A DNA stretch of 52,527 bases, taken from assembly GCA_018003015.1 (NCBI GenBank), contig JAGNEZ010000047.1, positions 1-52,527 of the forward strand. Reading direction: 5' to 3'. This document shows positions 3,728-43,586 of this stretch, one piece after another. This stretch comes from Phycisphaerae bacterium (lineage in GTDB: Bacteria; Planctomycetota; Phycisphaerae; UBA1845; PWPN01). Made by a program: the position numbers and the translations under genes. A model generated the notes under the pieces. That model searched no databases. It was not told where the DNA came from and saw only the letters and a list, made by a program, of their open reading frames with translations. Numbering within the stretch: the stretch's first letter is position 1; the number at the start of each line of letters is the position of its first letter.

Positions 3728-5833
3728 TCAGATGCCTTCGCCCCCGGGCCGATACGGCTCAAACGTCGTCTGCCGGTGCTGCTCCGCCTGCCGGGCGATC
3801 TTCCGCACTTCCCTGAAAAGACTCTCCTGGCAGCGGACCGCCCGGCCACCCTTGTGACGCGGCAGTTGATAGCTGCCGTCGGACGCCAGATGCCGACCCT
3901 TGACCGTGTCTTTGAAACATGTCTCCATGATGTCCACCAGCCGCGCCTTGCAGGCCGGATCCTCGATCGGCACCAGGAGTTCGACCCTGCGGTCCAGGTT
4001 CCGCGGCATCCAATCCGCGCTCGAGATGAACACCAGCTCGTCACCCCCGTTGTAGAAGTAAAACAGCCGGCTGTGCTCCAGATAACGATCCACAATGCTG
4101 ATCACGCTGATGTTCTCGCTCAATCCGGGAACACCCGGCCGCAGGCAGCAGATCCCCCGGACATTCAGTCGGATCTTGACCCCCGCCCTCGACGCGGCAT
4201 ACAGCACTTCAATCAACGCAGGGTCAACCAGCGAGTTCATCTTGGCCATGATCCGGGCCCGGCCACCCTGGCGCTTCCGCTCCGTCTCCACCTCGATCAG
4301 CTCGATCAGTCTCTCCCGCAACCCCAGCGGCGCCATCTCGATCTTGCGGAACTTCTGGGGCTGTGAGTAGCCGGTAATGGTATTGAAGAAGCTGGTGGCA
4401 TCCGAGACCAGCTCCTCATGGGTGGTCATGAAGGAGGCGTCGGTGTATTGGCGGGCGGTGATCTCGTTGTAGTTGCCGGTGCCGAAGTGGACGTAACGCT
4501 GAACTCCGTGCGGCTCGCGACGAATGACGATGCAGACCTTGGCATGAGTCTTGAGTCCCTTGACGCCGTAGATGACCTGCACCCCGGCCTGCTCCAGCTC
4601 GCGAGCCCACTCGATGTTCCGGGCCTCGTCAAACCGAGCCTTCAATTCGACCAGAGCGGTCACATGCTTGCCCCGCTCGGCGGCCCGGGCCAGGGCTGCG
4701 ACGATCGGGCTCTTGCGGCTGGTGCGATACAGGATCTGCTTGATGGCGAGCACGTCGGGATCATCGGCCGCCTCCTCGACCAGCCACACGACCGGGTCAA
4801 AACTGTCAAACGGATGATAGAGCAGGACATCGCGCCGGCTCAGAATGTCGAAGATGCTGAACTTCAGGTCGACGTCCGGCGAGGGATGCGCCGGCCAAGG
4901 CTCGTATTTGAGATCCTCGAAACCCTGCAGCTCGGTCAGCCGCATGTAGGCTGCCAGATCCGGCGGCCCTGCGACCGCATAGACGTCCCGCGACGACACG
5001 TCCAGCGACCGCTGCAGAAACTCCAGCACCCCAAGGCTGGCCTGCTGCGAGATTTCCAGTCGAACACAGTCGCTTTGTTTGCGCTGATCGAGAATCTCCT
5101 CCATTTCCTCCAGAAGATCGAACGCCAGATCCTCTCGCACACTCAGGTCCGCGTTGCGGTTGATTCGGAACGGCACAACTTCCAGCACGTGCTCGCCGGG
5201 AAAGAAGCGCTGAATGAAAAGAGTGCAGACGTCCTCCAGCAGAATGTACTCATACCGCCCAATGGCCGGCAGGGTGACGTGCCGCTGAAGGGCCCGGCCG
5301 AACGGAATCACGGCGTAGCGGGCCTCACGCTCGCCCGCCCCCGGATCCACCCGAACGCAGAGCGTCAGCATGCGATCGGTCAGCAGCGGAAACTCCCGAT
5401 CCCCGCCCACGGCCATCGGCGTCAGAACGGAGAAAACCTCACTCTCGAAAACCTGCTCCACGGCCTTCAGCTGCCGGTCGGAGAGTTCGCCCGGCCGCCT
5501 TCGCATCACCCCCCCCTGGGCCAGGGCCGGTTCAATGTCGTCGAGATAGCAGCTGTATTGCCCCTCAACCATGCGGCGGGCACGCCGGCTGACCGCCTCG
5601 AGCTGCTCCTCGGGGCTCATCCCCGCCGGATCCGTCTTCTGGCTGCCTTGACGTACGAGTTGCTGCAACCCTCCGACCCGCACCATGAAGAACTCGTCGA
5701 GGTTGGATGCGGTGATGGCCAGAAACTTGATCCGCTCCAGCAGAGGGATGGCCCGGTCTCGGGCCTCGTCAAGCACCCGCTCATTGAACTCCAGCCAGCT
5801 CAACTCCCGGTTGATGTAGGTCCGCGGTTTCAT
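3728..5833 (-). CDS. ppk: Polyphosphate kinase 1
   Basis: 701 residues, normal for PPK1. It reversibly transfers the terminal phosphate of ATP to a growing polyphosphate chain. The start MKPRTYINRELSWLEFN matches the family N-terminus; its ATG overlaps the ppx stop in an ATGA arrangement, so longer in-frame extensions are rejected. The autophosphorylated histidine is His430 in GLKTHAK, the second phospholipase-D-like histidine is His449 in YVHFGTGNYNE, and His587 lies in VDRYLEHSRLFYF; these match E. coli His435, His454 and His592 with a constant offset of 5. N-terminal, head and two catalytic C-terminal domains all appear complete. Third gene of the ROK-ppx-ppk-sixA operon, with translational coupling to ppx likely. 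Confidence 0.96.
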   Translation of the reverse strand: MKPRTYINRELSWLEFNERVLDEARDRAIPLLERIKFLAITASNLDEFFMVRVGGLQQLVRQGSQKTDPAGMSPEEQLEAVSRRARRMVEGQYSCYLDDIEPALAQGGVMRRRPGELSDRQLKAVEQVFESEVFSVLTPMAVGGDREFPLLTDRMLTLCVRVDPGAGEREARYAVIPFGRALQRHVTLPAIGRYEYILLEDVCTLFIQRFFPGEHVLEVVPFRINRNADLSVREDLAFDLLEEMEEILDQRKQSDCVRLEISQQASLGVLEFLQRSLDVSSRDVYAVAGPPDLAAYMRLTELQGFEDLKYEPWPAHPSPDVDLKFSIFDILSRRDVLLYHPFDSFDPVVWLVEEAADDPDVLAIKQILYRTSRKSPIVAALARAAERGKHVTALVELKARFDEARNIEWARELEQAGVQVIYGVKGLKTHAKVCIVIRREPHGVQRYVHFGTGNYNEITARQYTDASFMTTHEELVSDATSFFNTITGYSQPQKFRKIEMAPLGLRERLIELIEVETERKRQGGRARIMAKMNSLVDPALIEVLYAASRAGVKIRLNVRGICCLRPGVPGLSENISVISIVDRYLEHSRLFYFYNGGDELVFISSADWMPRNLDRRVELLVPIEDPACKARLVDIMETCFKDTVKGRHLASDGSYQLPRHKGGRAVRCQESLFREVRKIARQAEQHRQTTFEPYRPGGEGI

Positions 5834-7440
5834 GATCTCGCTCGACGCAGCAGTACCTGCATGCCGTAGGTCTCCTCGAACATCGGCCCTTTCTGGTCGA
5901 GGGCCAATTGCTCGAGGGAAAGATCCTCGGTGTTGGGAATCGCAATCACCAGCCGGCCATCCTCCCGGCTGCACCTCAACTCCGTGACTCGCTGACTCCG
6001 CGAGCAGTCCAGGGCGTCGGCAACCCGCAGCAGAGCCGCCATCTTCGCAACCACGATCCGACGGGTACGATCCAACGTCGCATACCCCTCGTGCGTCGGT
6101 TTGGGCGAGGCCCGCCGCGCATACCGGGCAACCAGGGCAACCAGCCGCACGTCCATCTTGCTCAGTCCGAACAGATCACTGTTCATGATCACGTACATCG
6201 AGTGCTTGTGATGGCTGGCCGGGTTGACAAAAGCCCCAATCTCGTGCAACAGGGCCGCGAGATAGAGAAGCAGCTCGTAACGCGGATCGAGCTGGTGCTC
6301 GCCCTGCAGGGCGTAAAACAGCCGCCGGCACAGCTCGCCCACGTGACGGGCGTGAGCCTCATTGACCTGATACTTGCGCGCCAGATCTATCGCCGAGCGG
6401 ATGATCTGGTTGTTGAACTCCTCGGTCCATACGCCTCGCGTGGCCATCTGGTGCAGCAACCCGTCGCGCAGGTTGACCGGGGCGACCAGGACCTCCCGGA
6501 GATCAAAAGCCCGGGCCATCTCCACGTAGGTCAGCAAGGCCGGAGCCAGTGTCTCGGCCTCCGGAAACGTCAGATGATACTCCTGAACGATTCGCCCCGG
6601 CGTCAGGTCAAGAAGGTCGTCGGTGAGGCTCTCCAGCGCGGCCAGAGATAAGCGATTGATGCCGTCCGGGTCCCAGCGATCCAGCAGCCGCGAAGCCGCA
6701 AAACGAACATCACCACCAAGAGCAATCATCTCGATCGCCACGCTCCGCGACACGTGCTGAATGACCTCCTCTACCGTGATGCGGATCTGGCTCACCATGA
6801 TCTGCCGGGTCTTCACCGTCGGAGCACGATACGTGTTCAGCATCTCCCGGAGCCGGATCGCTCCCAGCCGGTAGGTGCGGGAGAACGCCACGTTGTCGCC
6901 CTGGACAACGAGCAGCTCGGTGCTGCCGCCGCCAACCTCGATCACCATGGCCCGGGCCCCGGCCAGCTCCGGCTCCGCCTTCAGGAGCGGCTGGATCCCC
7001 AGGTAGGTGATCCGGTTCACCTCCGCTTCATCCAGCGGCTCAACCTGAAGCCCGGTCGCGATGGCAATGCGGTCCACGAACGCCAGTGAATTCGCCGCCT
7101 CGCGAACGGCGCTCGTCGCAACGACACGGATCCGGTTCTCCTCACTAACCCCGTATTCCTTGAGCAGACGCTGGTAGCTGCGCAACACCGCCACGCAATC
7201 CTCAATGGTGCTCTTGCGCAAATGCCCGCGAGTGAACGTGTCCTTCCCCAGATCCACTTCCCGCGACACCGACTCGAGGATCCGGATCCCTCCCGCCGGA
7301 CCGATCTCCGCGACAGCCATACGCACAGAACCCGCCCCAATGTCGATAACCGCCACCGGCGTCGTCCCGGCGACCTTCTCGCCCGGAACCGTCGCGGTCG
7401 CTTTGTCAGGCACATTCGACTTCATGACAGCGGCCACCAT
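5830..7440 (-). CDS. ppx: Exopolyphosphatase / guanosine pentaphosphatase (Ppx/GppA) with C-terminal HD-like domain
   Basis: 536 residues. The N-terminal ASKHA-fold phosphatase core has the phosphate loop AVIDIGAGSVRM and the second loop VIEVGGGSTELLV. The C-terminal half (about 330-536) is an HD-like helical domain as in long Ppx proteins, with LLHEIGAF at the usual HD position (His-Glu here). Ppx removes phosphate from the ends of polyphosphate; GppA acts on pppGpp, and the two cannot be separated by eye. The ATG at 7440 shares its A with the TGA of the ROK gene (TGATG); a GTG at 7443 is an alternative. The stop overlaps the ppk start by 4 bp. Encoding the synthase and the degrading enzyme with overlapping ends suggests a fixed ratio of the two. 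Confidence 0.93.
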   Translation of the reverse strand: MVAAVMKSNVPDKATATVPGEKVAGTTPVAVIDIGAGSVRMAVAEIGPAGGIRILESVSREVDLGKDTFTRGHLRKSTIEDCVAVLRSYQRLLKEYGVSEENRIRVVATSAVREAANSLAFVDRIAIATGLQVEPLDEAEVNRITYLGIQPLLKAEPELAGARAMVIEVGGGSTELLVVQGDNVAFSRTYRLGAIRLREMLNTYRAPTVKTRQIMVSQIRITVEEVIQHVSRSVAIEMIALGGDVRFAASRLLDRWDPDGINRLSLAALESLTDDLLDLTPGRIVQEYHLTFPEAETLAPALLTYVEMARAFDLREVLVAPVNLRDGLLHQMATRGVWTEEFNNQIIRSAIDLARKYQVNEAHARHVGELCRRLFYALQGEHQLDPRYELLLYLAALLHEIGAFVNPASHHKHSMYVIMNSDLFGLSKMDVRLVALVARYARRASPKPTHEGYATLDRTRRIVVAKMAALLRVADALDCSRSQRVTELRCSREDGRLVIAIPNTEDLSLEQLALDQKGPMFEETYGMQVLLRRARS

Positions 7441-8423
7441 CACTTGACGACCGATTCCCGAGCCCAGGCGGCAGCGCCCATGGCCGCAGCATCGTCACCG
7501 AGTTGGGCCGGAACCACCTTGAACGATTTGGCAAAGGCCGGCAGAACACGCTTTCGGGCAGCGCGACCCACGCCATCCACGAACAACTCCGGCATGGCCT
7601 CCACCAGACCGCCGCCGAGGATAACCGTGTCCGGAGCCAGCAGGTTCACTACGCCCGCCAGGACAACGCCGATCGACCGGGCCGCCTGCCGGACAATCTC
7701 CTCAATCGCCTGATCACCTTCCTTGATCGCCTCGGCCAGCGTCGCGCTGCGAATCTCGGCCAGGTCTGCGCCGGCCTTGGCCTGGAGGTGCGGGGCCTCG
7801 CCTCGGCATACCGCTTGGGCGGCAGCGCCGGCGATGGCCAGCCGACTCGCGTGAGCCTCCAGGCAACCTCGCTGCCCGCAACCGCACAGGCTTCCGTCGG
7901 GAAACAGCGGTACGTGGCCGATCTCCATGCACGAGCCCGTCTTGCCGCGCAGAATCTTGCCTTCGTACACACACCCGCCACCAATGCCAGTGCCCGGGAA
8001 AACCCCAATCACACAGCGCCCCGATCGTCCCGCCCCAAAACGGTACTCACCGTAGATTCCGGCATCCACGTCGTTCAGAATCACCGCCGGACAACCGAAC
8101 TCCTTCTCCAGCATCGCCTTGATGGGCACGTCCTTCCAGCCAAGGTTGGGTGTGTCGAGAATGATCCCCTGATCCAGATCCAGCGGGCCCGGGCAACCGA
8201 TACCGATCCCCCCCAGGCGATCGCGGGCAATGTGGGCTTCGTCGAGCATGGTCTGAATGACCTGCACCATCCGCCTGAAAACGGCATCCGTTCCCTCCTG
8301 CCCTTTGGTCTTCTTCCGGTTGCGCCCCAGCATCTGGAACTCGGAGTCAAAGACCGTGGCCAGCATCTTCGTGGCCCCCAGGTCGAATCCCACCCAGTAC
8401 GTCTCGTCCGGTTTGGCTGCCAT
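7440..8423 (-). CDS. ROK-family sugar kinase (glucokinase-like)
   Basis: 327 residues. The start MAAKPDETYWVGFDLGATKM places the ATP-phosphate loop (GFDLGATK) at the N-terminus. The catalytic region includes ILNDVDAGIYGE, then PGTGIGGG, and the ROK zinc site with Cys180, Cys182 and Cys187 in CGCGQRGCLEAH. It likely phosphorylates glucose or a related hexose in the cytoplasm. The stop overlaps ppx by 1 base, making it the first gene of the polyphosphate operon. Some ROK kinases (polyphosphate glucokinases) use polyphosphate as donor, so the context invites that idea; but as I recall polyphosphate glucokinases usually lack the zinc cysteines, which argues for ATP. Longer in-frame extensions up to 8600 lack similarity to the family and are rejected. 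Confidence 0.88.
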   Translation of the reverse strand: MAAKPDETYWVGFDLGATKMLATVFDSEFQMLGRNRKKTKGQEGTDAVFRRMVQVIQTMLDEAHIARDRLGGIGIGCPGPLDLDQGIILDTPNLGWKDVPIKAMLEKEFGCPAVILNDVDAGIYGEYRFGAGRSGRCVIGVFPGTGIGGGCVYEGKILRGKTGSCMEIGHVPLFPDGSLCGCGQRGCLEAHASRLAIAGAAAQAVCRGEAPHLQAKAGADLAEIRSATLAEAIKEGDQAIEEIVRQAARSIGVVLAGVVNLLAPDTVILGGGLVEAMPELFVDGVGRAARKRVLPAFAKSFKVVPAQLGDDAAAMGAAAWARESVVK

Positions 8424-8647
8424 GATGAAGCAAGGATAGCAGACTCGCCGCCCGAACACCACCCGGCGCTTGACCACGAGGAGCAGGTTGCAGTCCCCGT
8501 CAACCACGCGGATAATGAAGTCCGGATGGCAGCGCGCAACCGGATCATCGCGACGTTCCACCCGTGGGAAATCGACCGGCCCGCGAACCATGGCCTTCAT
8601 GCCGCCGACCAGGCCGCTTGACGCCAGCCGATCGGGGAACGCAAGCC

Positions 8648-9577
8648 TTGGCCAGCAAACGACTCCTGCCCGATGGCCAGCAACGCTTCGGCGCCCACAT
8701 GTCGATCGCCGGCGGGCTGCACCAGGCGCTCGTACTCGGCCGCAAGACCGGCTGCAACTGCATTCAGATCTTCGTCAAGAACCAGCGGCAGTGGCACGCG
8801 CCACCGCTGACTCAAGATCAGGTCCAAGCCTGGCAGAGAGCCCTGGCGGAATCGGACATCCGGCCGGTGATCGCCCACAGCACCTACCTGATCAACCTCG
8901 CCAGCCCCTACGACCAACTCTGGCAACGCAGCATCAACGCTTTCACCGACGAACTCGAACGATGTGAACGACTCGGTATCACCGCCCTGGTCATCCACCC
9001 CGGGGCCCACCTCGGCCAGGGAGTCGACCGGGGCATTGCCCGAGTCGCCCAGGCCCTCAATGCCATCCACGCCCGCACCAGGGGTTTCACCGTCAAGACC
9101 ACCCTGGAAACCACCGCCGGGCAGGGCTCGTGCCTGGGCAGCCGGCTCAACCAGCTGGCGGCCATAATTGAACAAACCCGGGAGCCCGACCGAATTCGCG
9201 TCTGCGTGGACACCTGTCACATCTTCGCTGCAGGATACGACCTCAGCTCCGCGCAAGGCTACGCGGCAACGATGGCCGATCTCACCCACCATATCGGCCT
9301 TGGTCGAATCGTCGCGTTCCACCTCAACGATTCGCTGAGCCCGATTGGCTGCCACAAAGATCGCCACGAACACATCGGCCGCGGGCACCTGGGCCGCAGT
9401 GCATTCCGACACCTGCTGAACGACCCCCGATTCCTGGGCCGCCCTATGATCCTGGAAACACCCAAAGGACAGGATTCCCGCGGCCGCGACCTGGACCGCG
9501 TCAACCTCGCCACCCTCCGGCGGCTGGTCGTCTCCGTCAAAACCCGCCCCACCGGCGCCGGCAAACCCCATGCATGA
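8648..9577 (+). CDS. nfo: Endonuclease IV (AP endonuclease, Nfo)
   Basis: 309 residues from a TTG start preceded by GGGGA at 9 nt; no ATG lies before the conserved FGAHMSIAGG strand, and a GTG at 8564 would add 28 residues without similarity or a ribosome site. The enzyme cuts DNA 5' of abasic sites in base excision repair and uses a tri-zinc centre. Ligand motifs visible are VIHPGAHLGQG, the ETTAGQG loop, VCVDTCHIFAAGYD, and FHLNDSLSPIGCHKDRHEHIG, covering the expected His, Asp and Glu residues in family order. Complete family length plus a slightly long C-terminus. Transcribed divergently from the ROK operon. Start codon less certain than function. Confidence 0.93.
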   Translation: MASKRLLPDGQQRFGAHMSIAGGLHQALVLGRKTGCNCIQIFVKNQRQWHAPPLTQDQVQAWQRALAESDIRPVIAHSTYLINLASPYDQLWQRSINAFTDELERCERLGITALVIHPGAHLGQGVDRGIARVAQALNAIHARTRGFTVKTTLETTAGQGSCLGSRLNQLAAIIEQTREPDRIRVCVDTCHIFAAGYDLSSAQGYAATMADLTHHIGLGRIVAFHLNDSLSPIGCHKDRHEHIGRGHLGRSAFRHLLNDPRFLGRPMILETPKGQDSRGRDLDRVNLATLRRLVVSVKTRPTGAGKPHA

Positions 9578-34849: not shown

Positions 34850-35815
34850 TCAGACCCGGCTGTAGTGGTCGGGGTACTTGAGCAGATGGCAACCAATGTT
34901 GTCCGCATAGCGCTGCATTGCCTGCTGCAGTACCTCGGGCGTATCCTCGGCCTTGTCCGGATCAACCAACCCGTCCAGCGGGATCAAATCGAAGTAGAAG
35001 TTGTCTCGAGATACGACGAAGCCCTGGAGTACGGGCACTTTGCAGCGCAGGGCGATCTGCATTGTCCCCGTCAGGAACTCCCGCTCCTCGCCGAAGATCT
35101 TGACCTTCGCGGTGCGCAGATGAGACGCGCGCAGGCGGCTGACGTCCAGGGCGGTGCCCAGGATGTAACCTTCCTGAAAACAGCGGTACAGGTCCCGCGG
35201 GTAGGAGTCCGCGAAGAACATACGGACCGCTCTGAGCTCAGGAAAGCTCTGCTCGTACTTCTCCTGAATGTAGCGGCGCATGGCCCCCTCGTTGCGGTCG
35301 CGGACCCCGGCAATGCGATATCCGAGCATGGCCATGATCTGGATGAGCACGTGGTGGGAGCCGTTGTGGCTCATACACACGTACAGGCCCTTGCCCCGCT
35401 CGAGGGCGTTGTCAATCAGCTCGCGGCGGTGAAACGTGGTGCGCCGGATGATCTCCTCGCGGGGAATCTTGTCGAAGATCAGGTAGAGCAGCTTGTCACA
35501 GCGGGTGCGAACGAAGTGCTGCCAGCAGGCGTAGGTCATCGAGCAGGACATCTCCTTGACGTGATCGCCAAGGGTCGCCCCCAGTCGCTTGCGGAACCTC
35601 CGCCGCCGCTTGTGATTGACCAGCCATTCACAGGTGCCGAAGAAACGGCCGAAGTGGTACAGCCCGCCGAGTCCAAAACACACGGCCAGTCCCCACAGGA
35701 AGCCGCGCACGAACATGAACTTCGTGCGGGTAAACCAGCTCAGCCCGTCCGATTCGACGGGCTTCTCCTCGGAACCGGGAACCGGCGTATCCGAGATGAC
35801 TGGATGGGCGGCCAT
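34850..35815 (-). CDS. LpxL/HtrB-like lysophospholipid acyltransferase
   Basis: 321 residues from ATG 35815 (a GTG at 35827 would add four residues). A hydrophobic segment (FMFVRGFLWGLAVCFGLGGLYHFG) precedes the acyltransferase core. The region around GKGLYVCMSHNGSHH matches the family block that usually reads HxGNWE. The catalytic His is His150, but the acidic residue expected five positions later is His155. The rest (MLGYRIAGVRDRNEGAMRRYI, GYILGTALDVSRL) follows the family order. Likely role: adding an acyl chain to lipid A or another membrane lipid. Single gene on the minus strand. Confidence 0.7.
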   Translation of the reverse strand: MAAHPVISDTPVPGSEEKPVESDGLSWFTRTKFMFVRGFLWGLAVCFGLGGLYHFGRFFGTCEWLVNHKRRRRFRKRLGATLGDHVKEMSCSMTYACWQHFVRTRCDKLLYLIFDKIPREEIIRRTTFHRRELIDNALERGKGLYVCMSHNGSHHVLIQIMAMLGYRIAGVRDRNEGAMRRYIQEKYEQSFPELRAVRMFFADSYPRDLYRCFQEGYILGTALDVSRLRASHLRTAKVKIFGEEREFLTGTMQIALRCKVPVLQGFVVSRDNFYFDLIPLDGLVDPDKAEDTPEVLQQAMQRYADNIGCHLLKYPDHYSRV

Positions 35816-35922
35816 GATGCCTCGCACCTGGACCTCATCTCACCGGGCCTTCGGACGCCGGTGTTCGCACCGGCGGCATTCTATCCCAGGATCGTCGAAC
35901 TCGGCAACCGCGGCCGCAGGGA

Positions 35923-35959: not shown

Positions 35960-36823
35960 ATGAAGCTCTATGATCAACACCTGCACTCCGCGAACTCGGT
36001 CGACAGCCGATCCGATCCCAGCGAGGTGGTGCGCGCGGCGATCGGGGCCGGACTGGCGGGCGTCACCTTCACCGAGCATTACGACCCCCACGAGAGCGAG
36101 TGGGACGTCTGCATCTACGACTACGAGCGCATCGCCCAGGCCGTGGCCGTGCTTCGGGAACAGTACGGCGACCAGATCTTCATCGGCCACGGCATTGAGG
36201 TTGACTACCAGCGGGAGCGCATGCCCTACATTCTTGATCATCTGACCAGCCATCGGTTTGACCTCGTCATTCTCGCCGTCCATTTCTTCGACGGTCGCGC
36301 CCTCCACCACCGGGAGCACTGGGGCAGCCTGTCGCCGGATGCAGCAACCCGGGCTTATCTGGCCACCGTCCTGGAGGCCGCCCAACTGGCCCTTGAGCTG
36401 GACCGCCGGGGACAACGGCCGTTCGACGTCCTGGCTCACCTGGACCTAGTCAAACGCTACACCCAGCGCTACTTCGGCTGCTACGACGTCGCCTCGCACC
36501 AGGCCGCGATCGACAGTATTCTGCAGACCTGCCTGGCCGCCAACCTGATCCCTGAACTCAACTGCAGCAGCCTGAGGCAATCGCTGCCCGAGACTCTGCC
36601 CGCGGATTGGGCCGTGCGACGCTATGCCGAACTCGGCGGTCGGGCGATGACCTTGGGCAGCGACGCCCATGCCCTGGAGCACGTGGGGGCGGGGCTGAAT
36701 GAGGGGGCTGCCATTCTCCAGCAGAACGCGATCAAGCACCAGGCGATCTTCATGAACCGCCAACGTTATGATCTGCCTCTGGAAGACGAAGACCGCGAGG
36801 TGGGCCATGCCTCCAGGGGCTGA
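35960..36823 (+). CDS. PHP-domain phosphatase (HisJ/histidinol-phosphatase-like)
   Basis: 287 residues. MKLYDQHLHSANSVD carries the first metal-binding His-x-His of the PHP fold; further ligands are in FTEHYDPHES, GIEVDY, ILAVHFFDG, DVLAHLDLVKRY and TLGSDAHALEHVG. The order matches HisJ-type histidinol phosphatases, though many PHP proteins act on other small phosphates. Its cytoplasmic location is implied by the absence of a signal. The stop lies 17 bp inside the next gene, so the two are probably cotranslated even though the next product is exported. Confidence 0.85.
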   Translation: MKLYDQHLHSANSVDSRSDPSEVVRAAIGAGLAGVTFTEHYDPHESEWDVCIYDYERIAQAVAVLREQYGDQIFIGHGIEVDYQRERMPYILDHLTSHRFDLVILAVHFFDGRALHHREHWGSLSPDAATRAYLATVLEAAQLALELDRRGQRPFDVLAHLDLVKRYTQRYFGCYDVASHQAAIDSILQTCLAANLIPELNCSSLRQSLPETLPADWAVRRYAELGGRAMTLGSDAHALEHVGAGLNEGAAILQQNAIKHQAIFMNRQRYDLPLEDEDREVGHASRG

Positions 36824-38744
36824 GAAAACCGGCTCGCATCTCGCTCTCCGGCCGGAATGGGCACCGGGTACCCTGCTGCTCGCGGCCATGTTCGTCGCCT
36901 GGGTGTACGGTCCGGGGCAGGGGGCGGATCTGGCCCCGGTCGTGCCGCTGGACAAGAACGAATGGCTGGGAACACCCCCGCCCGCAGTGGAGCCGGCCGA
37001 TCAGACCTTCCTCATGCGCCTTGTGCGCCGGTCGCTTCAACGGCTCGTGCGCAGCGGCGAGCGATACACCGTGGACTACGTACCTTCCACGCTCGAGGAG
37101 TTGAGATGCTGCGTGTCGGTGACGCTTCGGCGATGGGGTCGCGTGACGGGGCAGGGCCTGTCAGGCTTCGACACCGTGGTGAAGGCCTGCGCCAGCGCCG
37201 CGGAGGCCGCCTTGGCCGATGCTCGCCGAGACGCGCCGCTGGCGGATCATGACCTGGCCGAGACGAGGATCGAACTGGAGTTGATCGGTCCGTTTGAGAT
37301 GATCGGCACCTCCGACCAGCCGACCGAGGAGCTTGCCCGGCAGTACGAACCGCCGGTCCACGGCTTGGCTCTGCGGTTCGAGAGCACCGAAGCCCGCATT
37401 CGGCCTTCCGAGTGGTTCACTGCGGACCTCAAATATGATCCATTGGACGATCAGCACCACGGGCGAGGTCGCTGCGTCATGGCCATCGCGAGACTCCGCG
37501 AGATGATCGAACGCAGGGAACCCGTCTCACAGAACCATCCGGACCGGATCATCGTGCTCCGATTCCGGAGTCTTCATCTCTACGAGCCGACGCCGGGACA
37601 ACCGCCCGTTGAGCTGTTGGCCGGCCTGAGGCTTGTTCCGTCTGCAGACGTTCACCCCGAGAAGCTCCTGGTCGCGGCCGACACCATGGCTCGATTCATC
37701 CGCTTCCGACAGAATGCCGATGGCGTTTTTGCCTACGAGTATCTGGCCGGCCAAGGCATGTATCGAGGCGAGGACCAGAACTGGATTCGACAAGCGGCCA
37801 CGACCTGGAGCATGGCCGTCCACGCCCGAAAGCGAAGGGATGCCGAATCCGCGAGGGCCCTGGACCGGGCGATTGGGGTGTTTCGGAAGATGATTCGCCC
37901 GGTCTCCGGGCAGAGCGATGCCACCTTCCTGGCCACGCCTGACGATGAGAACGGCCTGGGGGCGACCGCCTTGGTCTGCCTGGCCCTGGCCGATGGGCCG
38001 GACCCGGAGCGATACGCCGACATCCGTCTGCCCCTGCTCAACGGCCTGGCCTCGATGCAGGAAGCCGACGGCACCTTCCGCACCCACTTTCCCCCTTCAG
38101 CTCTACAAACCACTCAGGACTACTACCCGGGCGAGGCCCTGCTGGCCATCGCCCGCCAATATGCTCTCGACAGCAGTCCCAGGTGGAGGGCCGTCTGCGA
38201 CAAGTCGCTGCCATTCTACCGTGCCTATTTCCGTCAGAAGCGACCGGCTCCGTTCATACCCTGGCAGGCCCAGGCCTGGGGTCAACTTGCGCGGACCACC
38301 CGGCGTCAGGAATACGCCGACTTCGTCTACGAAATGACCGACCATCTGGCCGGTACCCAGATGGCGCCGCCTCGCCCCATGCTACCCATCTACCTCGGCG
38401 GATTCGACGTCTACGGCAGCGGCCGTCCGGGTGTCAGCAGCGCCGTGTATCTCGAAGGGGCGGTTGACGCCCTGCGGACTGCCGAATCACTGGGCGACCG
38501 CGCCCGGGCAGACCGCTACCGCCGCGTGGTGACCGAAGCGGCGCGGTTCGTGTTGCAGCTTCAGTTCCGTGAGGAAGAATGCTATTATGTGGGTACGCCG
38601 CGGGACGTCGTCGGGGCAGTGCGCAACTCGCCCAGCGACCCGTCGCTGCGGATCGACCACGTGCAGCACGCGCTGTGTGCCCTGCTCGGAGCAGCGGAGT
38701 TGCTGACACCTGCCAGCCGGCCTTCAGCATGGAAATCGCGCTAG
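36807..38744 (+). CDS. Exported AMMECR1-like / six-hairpin fusion protein
   Basis: 645 residues from ATG 36807 (GAGG six bases upstream). A signal or anchor helix spans about 19-38 (GTLLLAAMFVAWVYG). Residues about 60-170 resemble AMMECR1: an N-terminal helix LMRLVRRSLQRLV, a strand CCVSVTLRRWGRVTGQG (standing where AMMECR1 has the LRGCIG turn), then a helix VVKACASAAEAAL and DLAETRIELELIGPFEMIG, like the family's LEIEVSVLSP segment. Residues about 290-630 are a helical (alpha/alpha) toroid with repeats such as FAYEYLAGQGMYR, GLGATALVCLALAD and YPGEALLAIARQYAL, as in six-hairpin or AGE-like folds. The function is unknown; the combination is unusual. AMMECR1-like is a fold-level call. Confidence 0.62.
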   Translation: MPPGAEKTGSHLALRPEWAPGTLLLAAMFVAWVYGPGQGADLAPVVPLDKNEWLGTPPPAVEPADQTFLMRLVRRSLQRLVRSGERYTVDYVPSTLEELRCCVSVTLRRWGRVTGQGLSGFDTVVKACASAAEAALADARRDAPLADHDLAETRIELELIGPFEMIGTSDQPTEELARQYEPPVHGLALRFESTEARIRPSEWFTADLKYDPLDDQHHGRGRCVMAIARLREMIERREPVSQNHPDRIIVLRFRSLHLYEPTPGQPPVELLAGLRLVPSADVHPEKLLVAADTMARFIRFRQNADGVFAYEYLAGQGMYRGEDQNWIRQAATTWSMAVHARKRRDAESARALDRAIGVFRKMIRPVSGQSDATFLATPDDENGLGATALVCLALADGPDPERYADIRLPLLNGLASMQEADGTFRTHFPPSALQTTQDYYPGEALLAIARQYALDSSPRWRAVCDKSLPFYRAYFRQKRPAPFIPWQAQAWGQLARTTRRQEYADFVYEMTDHLAGTQMAPPRPMLPIYLGGFDVYGSGRPGVSSAVYLEGAVDALRTAESLGDRARADRYRRVVTEAARFVLQLQFREEECYYVGTPRDVVGAVRNSPSDPSLRIDHVQHALCALLGAAELLTPASRPSAWKSR

Positions 38745-38796
38745 GCGGTGGCTTGGCGTCCGGACACGCGGAAGCACCGACCGTGAGGGACCGAAA

Positions 38797-39330
38797 GTGA
38801 TCCACGTACACATGCCAGGCCCGGCAGAAGAACTGGCCGCCCGTCCCCGTCGCCCTGACCAGGTCGCCCTGGTCGGCATCCCGACCATTCGGACCCATTT
38901 GCCCGCCGGCCGTCGGCGAACTCACGACGGCCTTCGGGCGGCTCGGGCCATCCCCGCCGCCCTGCTGGTCGTGGCGGGATTGACGGGGTGTAGCCCAATT
39001 CGCTGGGAGGTGAGCTACGAGCGGGCCCTGCAGGTGGCGGCAGAACGGCGCACCCGCGTCCTGGTCGCATTCCACTCCGTGGTCAACGCTGACTGCCGGG
39101 CGATGGACGCCGAAGTGTTCTCCGACGCCAACGTCCAGAAGCACGTTCGCCAGTATGTCCCCGTCCGCCTTGATCCGCTCATCCATCGGCAGCTGGCGAA
39201 GCAGTTCGGAGTCGAGACGGTCCCCGCCTTCCTGGTCGTTCGCCCGGACGGCGCGGTGGTGGGAGGCCGGGGCGGCAGGATGGACGCCGAGCAGTTCGGC
39301 TATTTCCTGATCAGGAGCAGGTTCAACTGA
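38797..39330 (+). CDS. Thioredoxin-fold lipoprotein with a single active-site cysteine
   Basis: 177 residues from a GTG with GAGGGA six bases upstream. A lipobox VAGLTGC makes Cys65 the likely lipidated residue after a long, basic N-terminus (a TTG at 38899 would shorten it). The mature domain resembles the N-terminal thioredoxin-like part of DUF255/YyaL proteins: VLVAFHSVV, then NADCRAMDAEVFSD, YVPVRLD, and VPAFLVVRPDGAVVG. The usual CxxC is Asn97-Ala-Asp-Cys100, so only the second cysteine remains. It lies 52 bp after the AMMECR1-like/six-hairpin gene. YyaL/SPATA20 proteins carry these two folds on one chain, so the pair could be a split version. Confidence 0.68.
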   Translation: MIHVHMPGPAEELAARPRRPDQVALVGIPTIRTHLPAGRRRTHDGLRAARAIPAALLVVAGLTGCSPIRWEVSYERALQVAAERRTRVLVAFHSVVNADCRAMDAEVFSDANVQKHVRQYVPVRLDPLIHRQLAKQFGVETVPAFLVVRPDGAVVGGRGGRMDAEQFGYFLIRSRFN

Positions 39331-40994: not shown

Positions 40995-41234
40995 GACGCG
41001 GCCTCCAGTCGAGCGTGAGGTGTATTGTCCGCGGGAGGCAATGATACGTCCAGACGGCCGACGAGGCCAGGCACCCGCGATCGCACGCGAACGCAGGGCG
41101 CGAGCGTGAACAGCACGCGGCCTGATTCAGCGGAGCAGCTCGCAGCCGCGAGACTCGCGCCTTCGACTTGCCCAGGTGGCGACGTTCCGCTATCCTCCCG
41201 GCCACATTGCCTGGCACAAGCACGAGGTCTTTCG

Positions 41235-42200
41235 ATGAGCATACCTGCAGAAGACACTGTCGCGGTCGAATGCCCGCACTGCCACGTGACCCTCGGGGTC
41301 AACCGGCAGTATCTGGGCCAGACCATCCAGTGTGGCAGGTGCCGACAGCAGTTGACCGTACCCGCCCAGCCAAACACCGCAGGCGGCACCATCTTCGGCC
41401 GCGTATCGCCCGGCGCACCGCCGCGGACGCCCCAGGCCAGTGAATCCGTGGACATCGAGAGCTTGCGGACCGCCGGCGAATCGGCCCTGCGGGTGGTATG
41501 CCTGGTGGTCAGCATTCTCCTCACCCTGCTTCTGCTTCTATCGTGCTTCGGCATTTTCTACCTTGCTGGTTTCATGCTAACCAGCTGGATCAGCCTGGCG
41601 TTCATGATGGCTCATATCAAGGCTCGCGCCATCCAGGTCACACCGGCCCAGCTTCCCGAGATCCACGAGTCGGCATGCCGAGTCTGCGCGAAGCTTGGTC
41701 TCCAGATGCCACCCGACGTCTACGTTGTCCAGGAGCAGGGCTGGCTTAATGCCTTCGCCACCCGGTTTGCGTCGCGCGACTATGTCGTCCTCTACGCCGA
41801 ACTGGTTGAGGCCTGCGGCTCCAACACCAGGGAACTGGACATGATCGTCGCCCACGAGATTGGCCACCTGGCCTTGGGGCACATCACCTGGGGATGGCTG
41901 CTCTTCCCGGCCCTGTTCATCCCATTCCTCGCCCAAGCTTACTCGCGGGCCTGCGAGTACAGCGCGGATCTCTGCGGCCAGGCCGGTTGCGGGGATTCCG
42001 CCGCGGCCGCGCGGGGGCTGCTCATTCTCGCAGCCGGCGGGCGCTGCGCCCGAATGGCCAGTATGGCGACCTTTTTGCGGCAAGGCCAGGAGGTCGGTGG
42101 CTTCTGGCAAACCGTGATCCAATGGCTATCGACGCACCCCTGGCTGACGCATCGTGTTCAAGCCCTGCACCGAGCCGACCCGATCACGAGCGGCAGTTGA
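41235..42200 (+). CDS. M48-family membrane metalloprotease with zinc-ribbon N-terminus
   Basis: 321 residues from ATG 41235 (GAGG eight bases upstream). An N-terminal zinc ribbon uses Cys13, Cys16, Cys33 and Cys36. A double hydrophobic stretch (about 87-125) anchors the protein. The zinc-protease site is intact: His207-Glu208-x-x-His211 in VAHEIGHLALGH, with the third ligand glutamate in ACEYSADLCG. M48 proteases (HtpX/Ste24-like) degrade membrane proteins or process prenylated ones. It is 36 bp upstream of a paralogue with a damaged motif, so the two probably form one operon. Confidence 0.88.
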   Translation: MSIPAEDTVAVECPHCHVTLGVNRQYLGQTIQCGRCRQQLTVPAQPNTAGGTIFGRVSPGAPPRTPQASESVDIESLRTAGESALRVVCLVVSILLTLLLLLSCFGIFYLAGFMLTSWISLAFMMAHIKARAIQVTPAQLPEIHESACRVCAKLGLQMPPDVYVVQEQGWLNAFATRFASRDYVVLYAELVEACGSNTRELDMIVAHEIGHLALGHITWGWLLFPALFIPFLAQAYSRACEYSADLCGQAGCGDSAAAARGLLILAAGGRCARMASMATFLRQGQEVGGFWQTVIQWLSTHPWLTHRVQALHRADPITSGS

Positions 42201-42236
42201 CTATCACCTGACGAGTTGCCCGGGAGGACAATCCGT

Positions 42237-43586
42237 ATGAGCGAGAACCCAGGACAGCTTCATCCGATGCCGACCGGCGACATGATCGCCGAGACGAGAC
42301 ATCCTCGCGAACGAGTACTCTTTGCGTTCTGTCTCTTGTTCTCCCTGTTGGCTTGGGTCGCGATCGGCATCGTGGTGGTCCCCGAGCTGCTCGAGGATGC
42401 GGAAGGACTGCTCGTCGCGGTCGTGCTGATCGGGGTGATCGGGCTGGTCAGCCTTTTCGTTCGTGCCGCGTTCGTAGCCCACGTTCGCGGCAACGGACTC
42501 CGCGTCAGCGGCGAGCAGCTTCCCCACATTGCTGCGGCCGTGGAGCGGGCGGCGGCCGCGCTCGGCGTCCCCGCGCCGGAGACGTATGTCGTCCAGTATG
42601 GCGGTGTTCGCGAAGCGGCAACCAGGATCTTTCTCGGCTCCAGAATCCTGGCCCTGTCCAGCGACCTGGTCGAGGATCAGGGCGAGGGTCCCGAACTCGA
42701 CATGGTCATCGGACGCGAGGTTGCCCATTTCCGCTACCACCATCTGAGGTGGGGACTGATCCTGCTCCCGTCGATGATTTTGCCGCTCCTCTATCCGGCG
42801 TGGCGACGATCGACGGAGTACACCGCCGACCGCTGCGGGCTTCGCGTCTGCGGCGACCCAGTCGCGGCCGAGCGAGCCATCTACATCACCGCGGCCGGCA
42901 GCGAACTCGGCCGGCGAATCGCACCTGGCGCTTATCACGAACAGGTCCGCTTGACTGGCGGGTTCTTCCTGACCCTCGCTTCGCTGCTCAGTCCCGAACC
43001 GAACACGGTCTGGCGGGTCTCCCGGCTGCTCCAGGCCCTCCCCGAACACGCGGGCACCGCCCCGGCACCCAGGAGGAGCGTTATCGCGACCTTCCTCTCC
43101 GCCTTCATCCCCGGAAGCTCGTTGCTTCGCGGATCCTCCGGTGCCGGAGCCAACCTGCTGATCGCCGTCGCGCTCATTGCGCTACTCATCTCCTTCATGC
43201 TCCCCTCCCTGGCCCGGGCCCGCGAGCTGGCCAAACGCAGCGTCTGCGCGACGCGCATGAGCACCATCGGTGTCGCCCTCGCACAGTATGCCTCGGAACA
43301 CAACGGACGACTGCCCGCCGACCTCGCCGGTCATCTGCTCCGCGCCGGTATCCCGGCAGACACCTTGTGCTGCCCGAGCGGCACAGGCCCTAACTACCTG
43401 GTTGCCCGGCCACCTCCAGGGGGATACACGGCCGCCACGCCGGCAGTCTTCGAGCCGCTCGACAACCATGGCCAAGAAGGAGGGTTCGTACTCTTCGGTA
43501 ACGGCACTGTGGAATTCCTCCTGAAGGCCGAGTTCGAACGGGTAACGGAACCGTACCTGGAGGATGCGACGCCGATCGAACCTTGA
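42237..43586 (+). CDS. Inactivated M48-like protease fused to pilin-like module
   Basis: 449 residues from ATG 42237, with GGGAGG upstream. Two N-terminal helices (about 34-80) then an M48-like domain parallel to the upstream gene: LDMVIGREVAHFRYHH corresponds to its LDMIVAHEIGHLALGH, so the first zinc ligand is Arg160 (REVAH rather than HExxH); the third ligand glutamate is kept in STEYTADRCG. After a linker comes a second hydrophobic helix (about 304-320) ending LARARELAKR, then ALAQYASEHNGRLP (His355), and FVLFGNGTVEFL. These match mature planctomycete pilin-like proteins, including a near version of the C-terminal H-X9-DG motif. Probably catalytically dead; role unknown, perhaps a partner for its neighbour. 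Confidence 0.75.
   Translation: MSENPGQLHPMPTGDMIAETRHPRERVLFAFCLLFSLLAWVAIGIVVVPELLEDAEGLLVAVVLIGVIGLVSLFVRAAFVAHVRGNGLRVSGEQLPHIAAAVERAAAALGVPAPETYVVQYGGVREAATRIFLGSRILALSSDLVEDQGEGPELDMVIGREVAHFRYHHLRWGLILLPSMILPLLYPAWRRSTEYTADRCGLRVCGDPVAAERAIYITAAGSELGRRIAPGAYHEQVRLTGGFFLTLASLLSPEPNTVWRVSRLLQALPEHAGTAPAPRRSVIATFLSAFIPGSSLLRGSSGAGANLLIAVALIALLISFMLPSLARARELAKRSVCATRMSTIGVALAQYASEHNGRLPADLAGHLLRAGIPADTLCCPSGTGPNYLVARPPPGGYTAATPAVFEPLDNHGQEGGFVLFGNGTVEFLLKAEFERVTEPYLEDATPIEP

Follow-up and report, generated by a model that had tools for sequence, protein, structure and literature searches.

A phylum-wide planctomycete family that joins an AMMECR1 domain to a putative alpha/alpha toroid behind a predicted export signal

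AMMECR1 proteins are conserved from archaea to humans, and their molecular function is unsettled. On a 52.5-kb contig (C47) of the planctomycete genome G000, which over its entire length is referred to below as the window, one gene appears to place such a domain between an export signal and a helical toroid, and the gene after it encodes a thioredoxin-fold lipoprotein. A preliminary description of this DNA had read the two products as a periplasmic or surface unit and as a split relative of YyaL/SPATA20. What kind of protein is the fusion, what might it do, and does it belong with its neighbor? We found by computation that the fusion represents a phylum-wide planctomycete family of predicted exported two-domain proteins, whose putative toroid is of the terpene-cyclase/prenyltransferase/glycosidase class. 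Although the types of domain are known, their combination in one exported protein is new. It is spread over many Planctomycetota families, and the architecture in which export signal, AMMECR1 domain, and alpha/alpha toroid follow each other in one protein is very probably correct.

Architecture of the fusion protein

Taken alone, the window protein falls far below curated cut-offs, matching PF01871 with 17.1 bits (E = 0.004; cut-off 25 bits) and TIGR04335, AmmeMemoRadiSam system protein A, weakly (E = 7e-5). At profile level the AMMECR1 domain is real. PF01871 was matched by 25 of 48 orthologues (best E = 4e-10), and a profile built from all 48 retrieved the AMMECR1 structures 1vaj and 1zq7 from the PDB (E = 3e-7 and 3e-6). 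When the fusion family was compared by hhalign with 28 canonical planctomycete AMMECR1 domains, the two aligned at 97.8% (E = 9e-13, 149 columns), while the controls gave nothing, as expected, both when the toroid was compared with canonical AMMECR1 (0.2%) and when the AMMECR1 part was compared with the toroids of YyaL or AGE (0.3 to 0.6%). Two relatives, L145 (59 bits) and L146, pass the PF01871 cut-off. The domain is longer than the residues ~60 to 170 first assigned to it and spans ~58 to 262, since it also includes the C-terminal strands of AMMECR1: in an alignment with distant relatives, the strand vylFtaevF aligns with RFRTxHWYQ, which puts the end near residue 262. The whole domain is therefore aligned with the AMMECR1 family by profile and with its solved structures, but the fusion protein differs from that family in its predicted export, its toroid, and the loss of LRGCIG in the window's order. 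The motif RG[CSTA][ILVMTF]G occurs in none of the 48 aligned orthologues, and the window has RVTGQGLSG in its place. Since two distant members with the same architecture keep the RGC half (VVRGCQSG in L145 and KSRGCYSG in L146), the motif appears to have decayed within the family. The simplest reading is a single fusion family, presumably of one origin, with a decaying RGCIG motif.

For the second half of the protein, no Pfam family covers the region in the window sequence. Weak matches are scattered among the orthologues, and several point to families with an alpha/alpha toroid (GH127, AGE, GH15, GH88, and LanC-like). A toroid-only profile matched the C-terminal part of squalene-cyclase-type chains (E = 0.005) and GH105 (E = 0.08) in the PDB. 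L147, a relative consisting of the toroid only, exceeds the cut-off of PF00432 (Prenyltrans; 32.3 bits against 26.5) and barely that of GH88 (26.7 against 26.6), and L145 narrowly misses PF00432 with 24.6 bits. Self-comparison revealed an internal repeat with an offset of ~115 residues. An AlphaFold model computed from the window and L032 sequences was mostly helical and, with a predicted local distance difference test (pLDDT) of 45, was used for helix content alone; a fold search with this low-confidence model gave weak matches to GH76 and helical-repeat proteins, none at E ≤ 0.001. The helical toroid proposed earlier behind the AMMECR1 domain is thus supported by family profile matches and mostly helical secondary structure. 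As a fold at residues ~270 to 636 it is supported but, because the model is of low confidence, not proven. The polar residues most constant in near and far relatives are Y310 and Y312 (a YxY), Q418, W486, Q518, R606, R615, D617, and H621. Relative to the PF00432 toroid and the squalene-cyclase C-terminal domain (PF13243), the region shares toroid-class similarity and QxxDGxF-like repeats, but the window protein itself has no match to them, shows no clear cyclase acid motif, and is predicted to be secreted.

Shorter relatives without the AMMECR1 part also exist (L147, L164, L168, and L170; open frames of 380 to 478 residues), some with signal-like starts. Variants of the fusion carry HEAT repeats between the two domains (L146) or TPR repeats in front of them (L148).

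A hydrophobic stretch lies directly before the domain in 55 of 56 orthologues, where shuffles of the same residues predict 32. Since this expectation is high, the export call rests as much on the consistent form and position of the stretch as on the count; many orthologues begin with a charged start, a hydrophobic core, and an AxA-like end. The export signal recognized earlier is upheld, and a periplasmic or surface location is probable.

The accompanying statement that known AMMECR1 proteins are cytoplasmic does not hold. On contig C36, the same genome encodes a signal-bearing Memo-AMMECR1 fusion beginning with MKASCLLQGGMFIMAILTSAHGQ. Its radical SAM neighbor is the AmmeMemoRadiSam enzyme (TIGR04337, 379 bits) and starts with the Tat-type leader PTRRTLLRSCAACAAAAAMWRSAPALA. 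Like the window protein, the Memo-AMMECR1 fusion combines a signal peptide and an AMMECR1 domain in one predicted exported chain, but it has a Memo domain instead of the toroid, an intact RGCIG, and radical SAM and DUF362 neighbors, whereas no Memo or radical SAM partner is found among the annotated neighbors in the window. In this set (L235, G000:C36:26000-42000; 5528-9464, minus strand), the DUF362 protein carries a Tat-like leader and the Memo-AMMECR1 protein a Sec-type signal; L205, L226, and L227 have leaders of a similar kind. The AmmeMemoRadiSam set on C36 is apparently exported; a radical SAM system in the periplasm would be surprising. Judging from such leaders, exported AMMECR1 is not exceptional in Planctomycetota. 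Memo-Ammecr1 systems have been described by Burroughs et al. 2019, as cited in PMC7159879. In open-licence papers, we found none on an exported AMMECR1-toroid fusion.

Distribution, genomic neighborhoods, and possible role

Fusion relatives are present in 69 of 150 related genomes. A scan of 392 Planctomycetota genomes gave hits in 57 at E = 1e-10; these belong to many families, with a few hits apparently canonical AMMECR1 only, and a single scan of genome contigs found only the sister species. No fusion relatives were found on viral contigs, and PHROGs gave no match. In one genome (G006; L059, 7547-8827), the fusion gene is shortened to 426 residues, lacks most of the toroid, and lies beside PHP and LpxL-like genes, so that it is possibly decaying.

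Directly downstream of the fusion, 31 of 58 loci encode a multi-membrane protein, mostly of 670 to 840 residues and usually spaced by -56 to +19 bp, one member of which matches PMT_2 (E = 5e-8). A PHP gene lies upstream in 13 of 58 loci, and a divergent gene for a DacZ-type protein with a DAC domain is present in 26 of the 53 loci whose upstream side is visible. Such DacZ-like genes occur among L034 to L091 (for example L050:10031-10948 and L073:6933-7847), and the RHR motif of DAC is RHA in the sequences read. Family f7 has lipid kinase, signal peptidase, and LptB genes upstream of the fusion, and in the window's family a lipid A acyltransferase-like gene is close by. Judged from these predicted products, the recurring theme of the neighborhoods is the cell envelope, with no single neighbor universal.

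We consider the best explanation overall, to which we give slightly less than an even chance, to be an envelope protein with a toroid that handles glycans or lipid-linked sugars and an AMMECR1 docking module. The fusion protein would be periplasmic and act on the cell envelope. Its working part would be the toroid, which keeps the polar set YxY, W486, R606, R615, D617, and H621 and would bind or process a glycan or lipid-linked sugar. As RGCIG is lost in the window's order, the AMMECR1 domain may serve for binding or docking and not as an enzyme. In related genera, the fusion may act with the product of the next gene downstream, the PMT-like membrane glycosyltransferase. Spelled out as a function, a periplasmic protein with a toroid for binding or processing a glycan or lipid-linked sugar and with an AMMECR1 part reduced to binding, the proposal is tentative and leans toward the unlikely.

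Several observations weigh against this envelope role. Both AlphaFold models are of low confidence (pLDDT 45 for the toroid and 38 for the AMMECR1 part, from the same input), and no PDB fold matched at E 0.001. Substrate and activity are solely what we infer, and among the best matches of the toroid, enzymes that act on lipids stand beside those that act on sugars. The PMT-like neighbor is absent from the window's own genus, family f7 has flagellar genes downstream of the fusion, and L145 lies near a prepilin-peptidase-like gene. With the PMT-like gene missing from that genus and neighbors differing between families, an operon ties the fusion to glycosylation only in certain lineages.

The toroid matches invite other readings. 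The fusion could be a secreted carbohydrate-active enzyme (a hydrolase, lyase, or epimerase) that has an accessory domain derived from AMMECR1 and attacks polysaccharide outside the cell instead of taking part in envelope assembly, as the weak matches to GH88/105, GH127, GH76, AGE, and GH15 and the sulfatases and GH20 annotated by domain near the locus in the window would suggest. No glycosidase family clearly passes, however, except for the borderline GH88 match of L147, the hhalign values for AGE, GH88, and GH76 are only 1 to 4%, and around most loci, whose neighbors are partly annotated, no glycosidase cluster was seen; we regard this reading as unlikely. The toroid could instead handle lipids or isoprenoids in the manner of a prenyltransferase or terpene cyclase, its substrate being, for example, undecaprenyl-linked or of the lipid A type. 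The best profile matches are the squalene-cyclase C-terminal chains, L147 passes PF00432, and lipid kinase and LptB or LpxL genes are neighbors in some families, but the resemblance is one of fold, the conserved residues include no evident DXDD acid motif, and squalene-hopene cyclase from the window's class reaches 3.6% in hhalign, which makes this reading quite improbable. Against all the toroids compared in this way (AGE, GH88, squalene-hopene cyclase, C5-epimerase, and GH76), the values stay below 4%, some of the alignments being thin (1 to 5 sequences).

The envelope role can be extended into a history in which an ancient planctomycete family had its AMMECR1 domain exported and fused to a toroid, lost RGCIG stepwise, and was recruited to a machine for envelope glycans or glycolipids, with regulation near a cyclic-di-AMP synthase of the DacZ type. 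This is a doubtful extension; if true, its intermediates would allow AMMECR1 function to be tested outside the cytoplasm. This large bacterial family offers natural variants for such work, in which a still recognizable AMMECR1 domain is predicted to lie outside the cytoplasm and has lost its hallmark motif to varying degrees while the fusion partner stays constant, together with a genetic context for testing function (the PMT-like glycosyltransferase, the DacZ-like cyclase, and the PHP phosphatase).

The thioredoxin lipoprotein and the split-YyaL idea

The neighboring lipoprotein had been described as DUF255-like. Its thioredoxin fold and its lipobox (LTGC) stand, whereas its family changes: the best Pfam family is Thioredoxin_7 (PF13899; E = 3e-10, 40.4 bits, cut-off 27), and DUF255 stays below the same cut-off of 27 (E = 9e-5, 22.9 bits). 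As noted before, Asn-Ala-Asp-Cys (NADC) replaces CxxC. Because Cys100 is the sole active-site cysteine, the classical dithiol reaction is excluded for this protein. Orthologues mostly have a single cysteine at this site as well, with none in L128 and L134 and a CxxC only in L133 and L141.

The thioredoxin gene adjoins the fusion gene in the window's own genus only, in G000 and in the sister species G001. The pair is therefore found in more than one genome, but nowhere beyond that genus. The two genes lie ~950 kb apart in G006 and on different contigs in G007, and thioredoxin orthologues occur throughout the window's family, also in genomes without the fusion. A two-protein unit of fusion and thioredoxin was rejected on this distribution. 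In three genomes without the fusion (G003, L130; G010, L129; G011, L128), the thioredoxin gene directly follows the PHP gene, and in G010 and G011 an LpxL-like gene lies on the other side of this pair. The thioredoxin gene is thus tied to the PHP gene and not to the fusion, since the order exists without it. With PHP as the common neighbor, the likeliest history is that an LpxL-PHP-thioredoxin locus either lost the fusion or received it by insertion. The lipoprotein would share the chromosomal neighborhood (LpxL-PHP-...-thioredoxin) and be neither needed for the fusion nor dependent on it.

That toroid and lipoprotein are separated halves of a YyaL-type protein acting together, as their side-by-side fold types in the window genome and the sister species and the weak DUF255 match would suggest, is very improbable and was rejected on profile comparison with working controls, an intact YyaL in the genome, and synteny: the toroid profile shows no kinship to that of YyaL (1.3% in hhalign, against 69% for YyaL-AGE and 87% for YyaL-GH76), a YyaL in which CHWC and the domain after it share a single chain is encoded elsewhere in the same genome, the thioredoxin is of another family (Thioredoxin_7) without CxxC, some members of which have no active-site cysteine at all, and the pairing is not conserved, being confined to one genus, with the thioredoxin retained in genomes that lack the fusion. 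The resemblance to YyaL/SPATA20 is reduced to a thioredoxin-fold part and a helical-toroid part in two adjoining genes, and the idea of a split, surface-located YyaL relative is corrected accordingly.

Layout of the locus

The open reading frame coordinates (Table 1) agree with the 17-bp overlap between the PHP and fusion genes and with the 52-bp gap from the fusion gene to the thioredoxin open reading frame that had been reported.

Table 1. Features of the fusion locus, in window positions
Feature	Position	Strand	Basis
Fusion gene, predicted exported AMMECR1-like domain plus putative alpha/alpha toroid; ATG start, 645 residues	36807-38744	+	Open reading frame; relatives across the phylum
Predicted signal for export, with GTLLLAAMFVAWVYG as its hydrophobic core	36807-36932	+	Sequence; hydrophobic stretch here in 55/56 orthologues
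AMMECR1-type domain, residues ~58-262	36978-37592	+	Pfam, family profile vs PDB, hhalign, alignment with distant relatives
RVTGQGLSG where canonical AMMECR1 has LRGCIG; motif lost together with its Cys	37140-37166	+	hhalign alignment
Putative alpha/alpha toroid, residues ~270-636; Q-x2-DGxF-like repeats, C-terminal GGxR...RIDxxQH-type motif	37614-38714	+	Profile matches, conserved residues
Thioredoxin-fold lipoprotein (Thioredoxin_7); GTG start, 177 residues, lipobox Cys65, single active-site Cys100 (NADC)	38797-39330	+	Open reading frame, Pfam
PHP-domain (HisJ-like) phosphatase gene, neighbor common to fusion and thioredoxin genes	35960-36823	+	Open reading frame, Pfam, synteny
Lipid A acyltransferase-like (LpxL-type) gene, divergent; beside PHP also in G001, G006, G010, G011	34850-35827	-	Pfam, synteny

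Two M48-family peptidase genes in tandem adjoin the locus (window positions 41025-43586).

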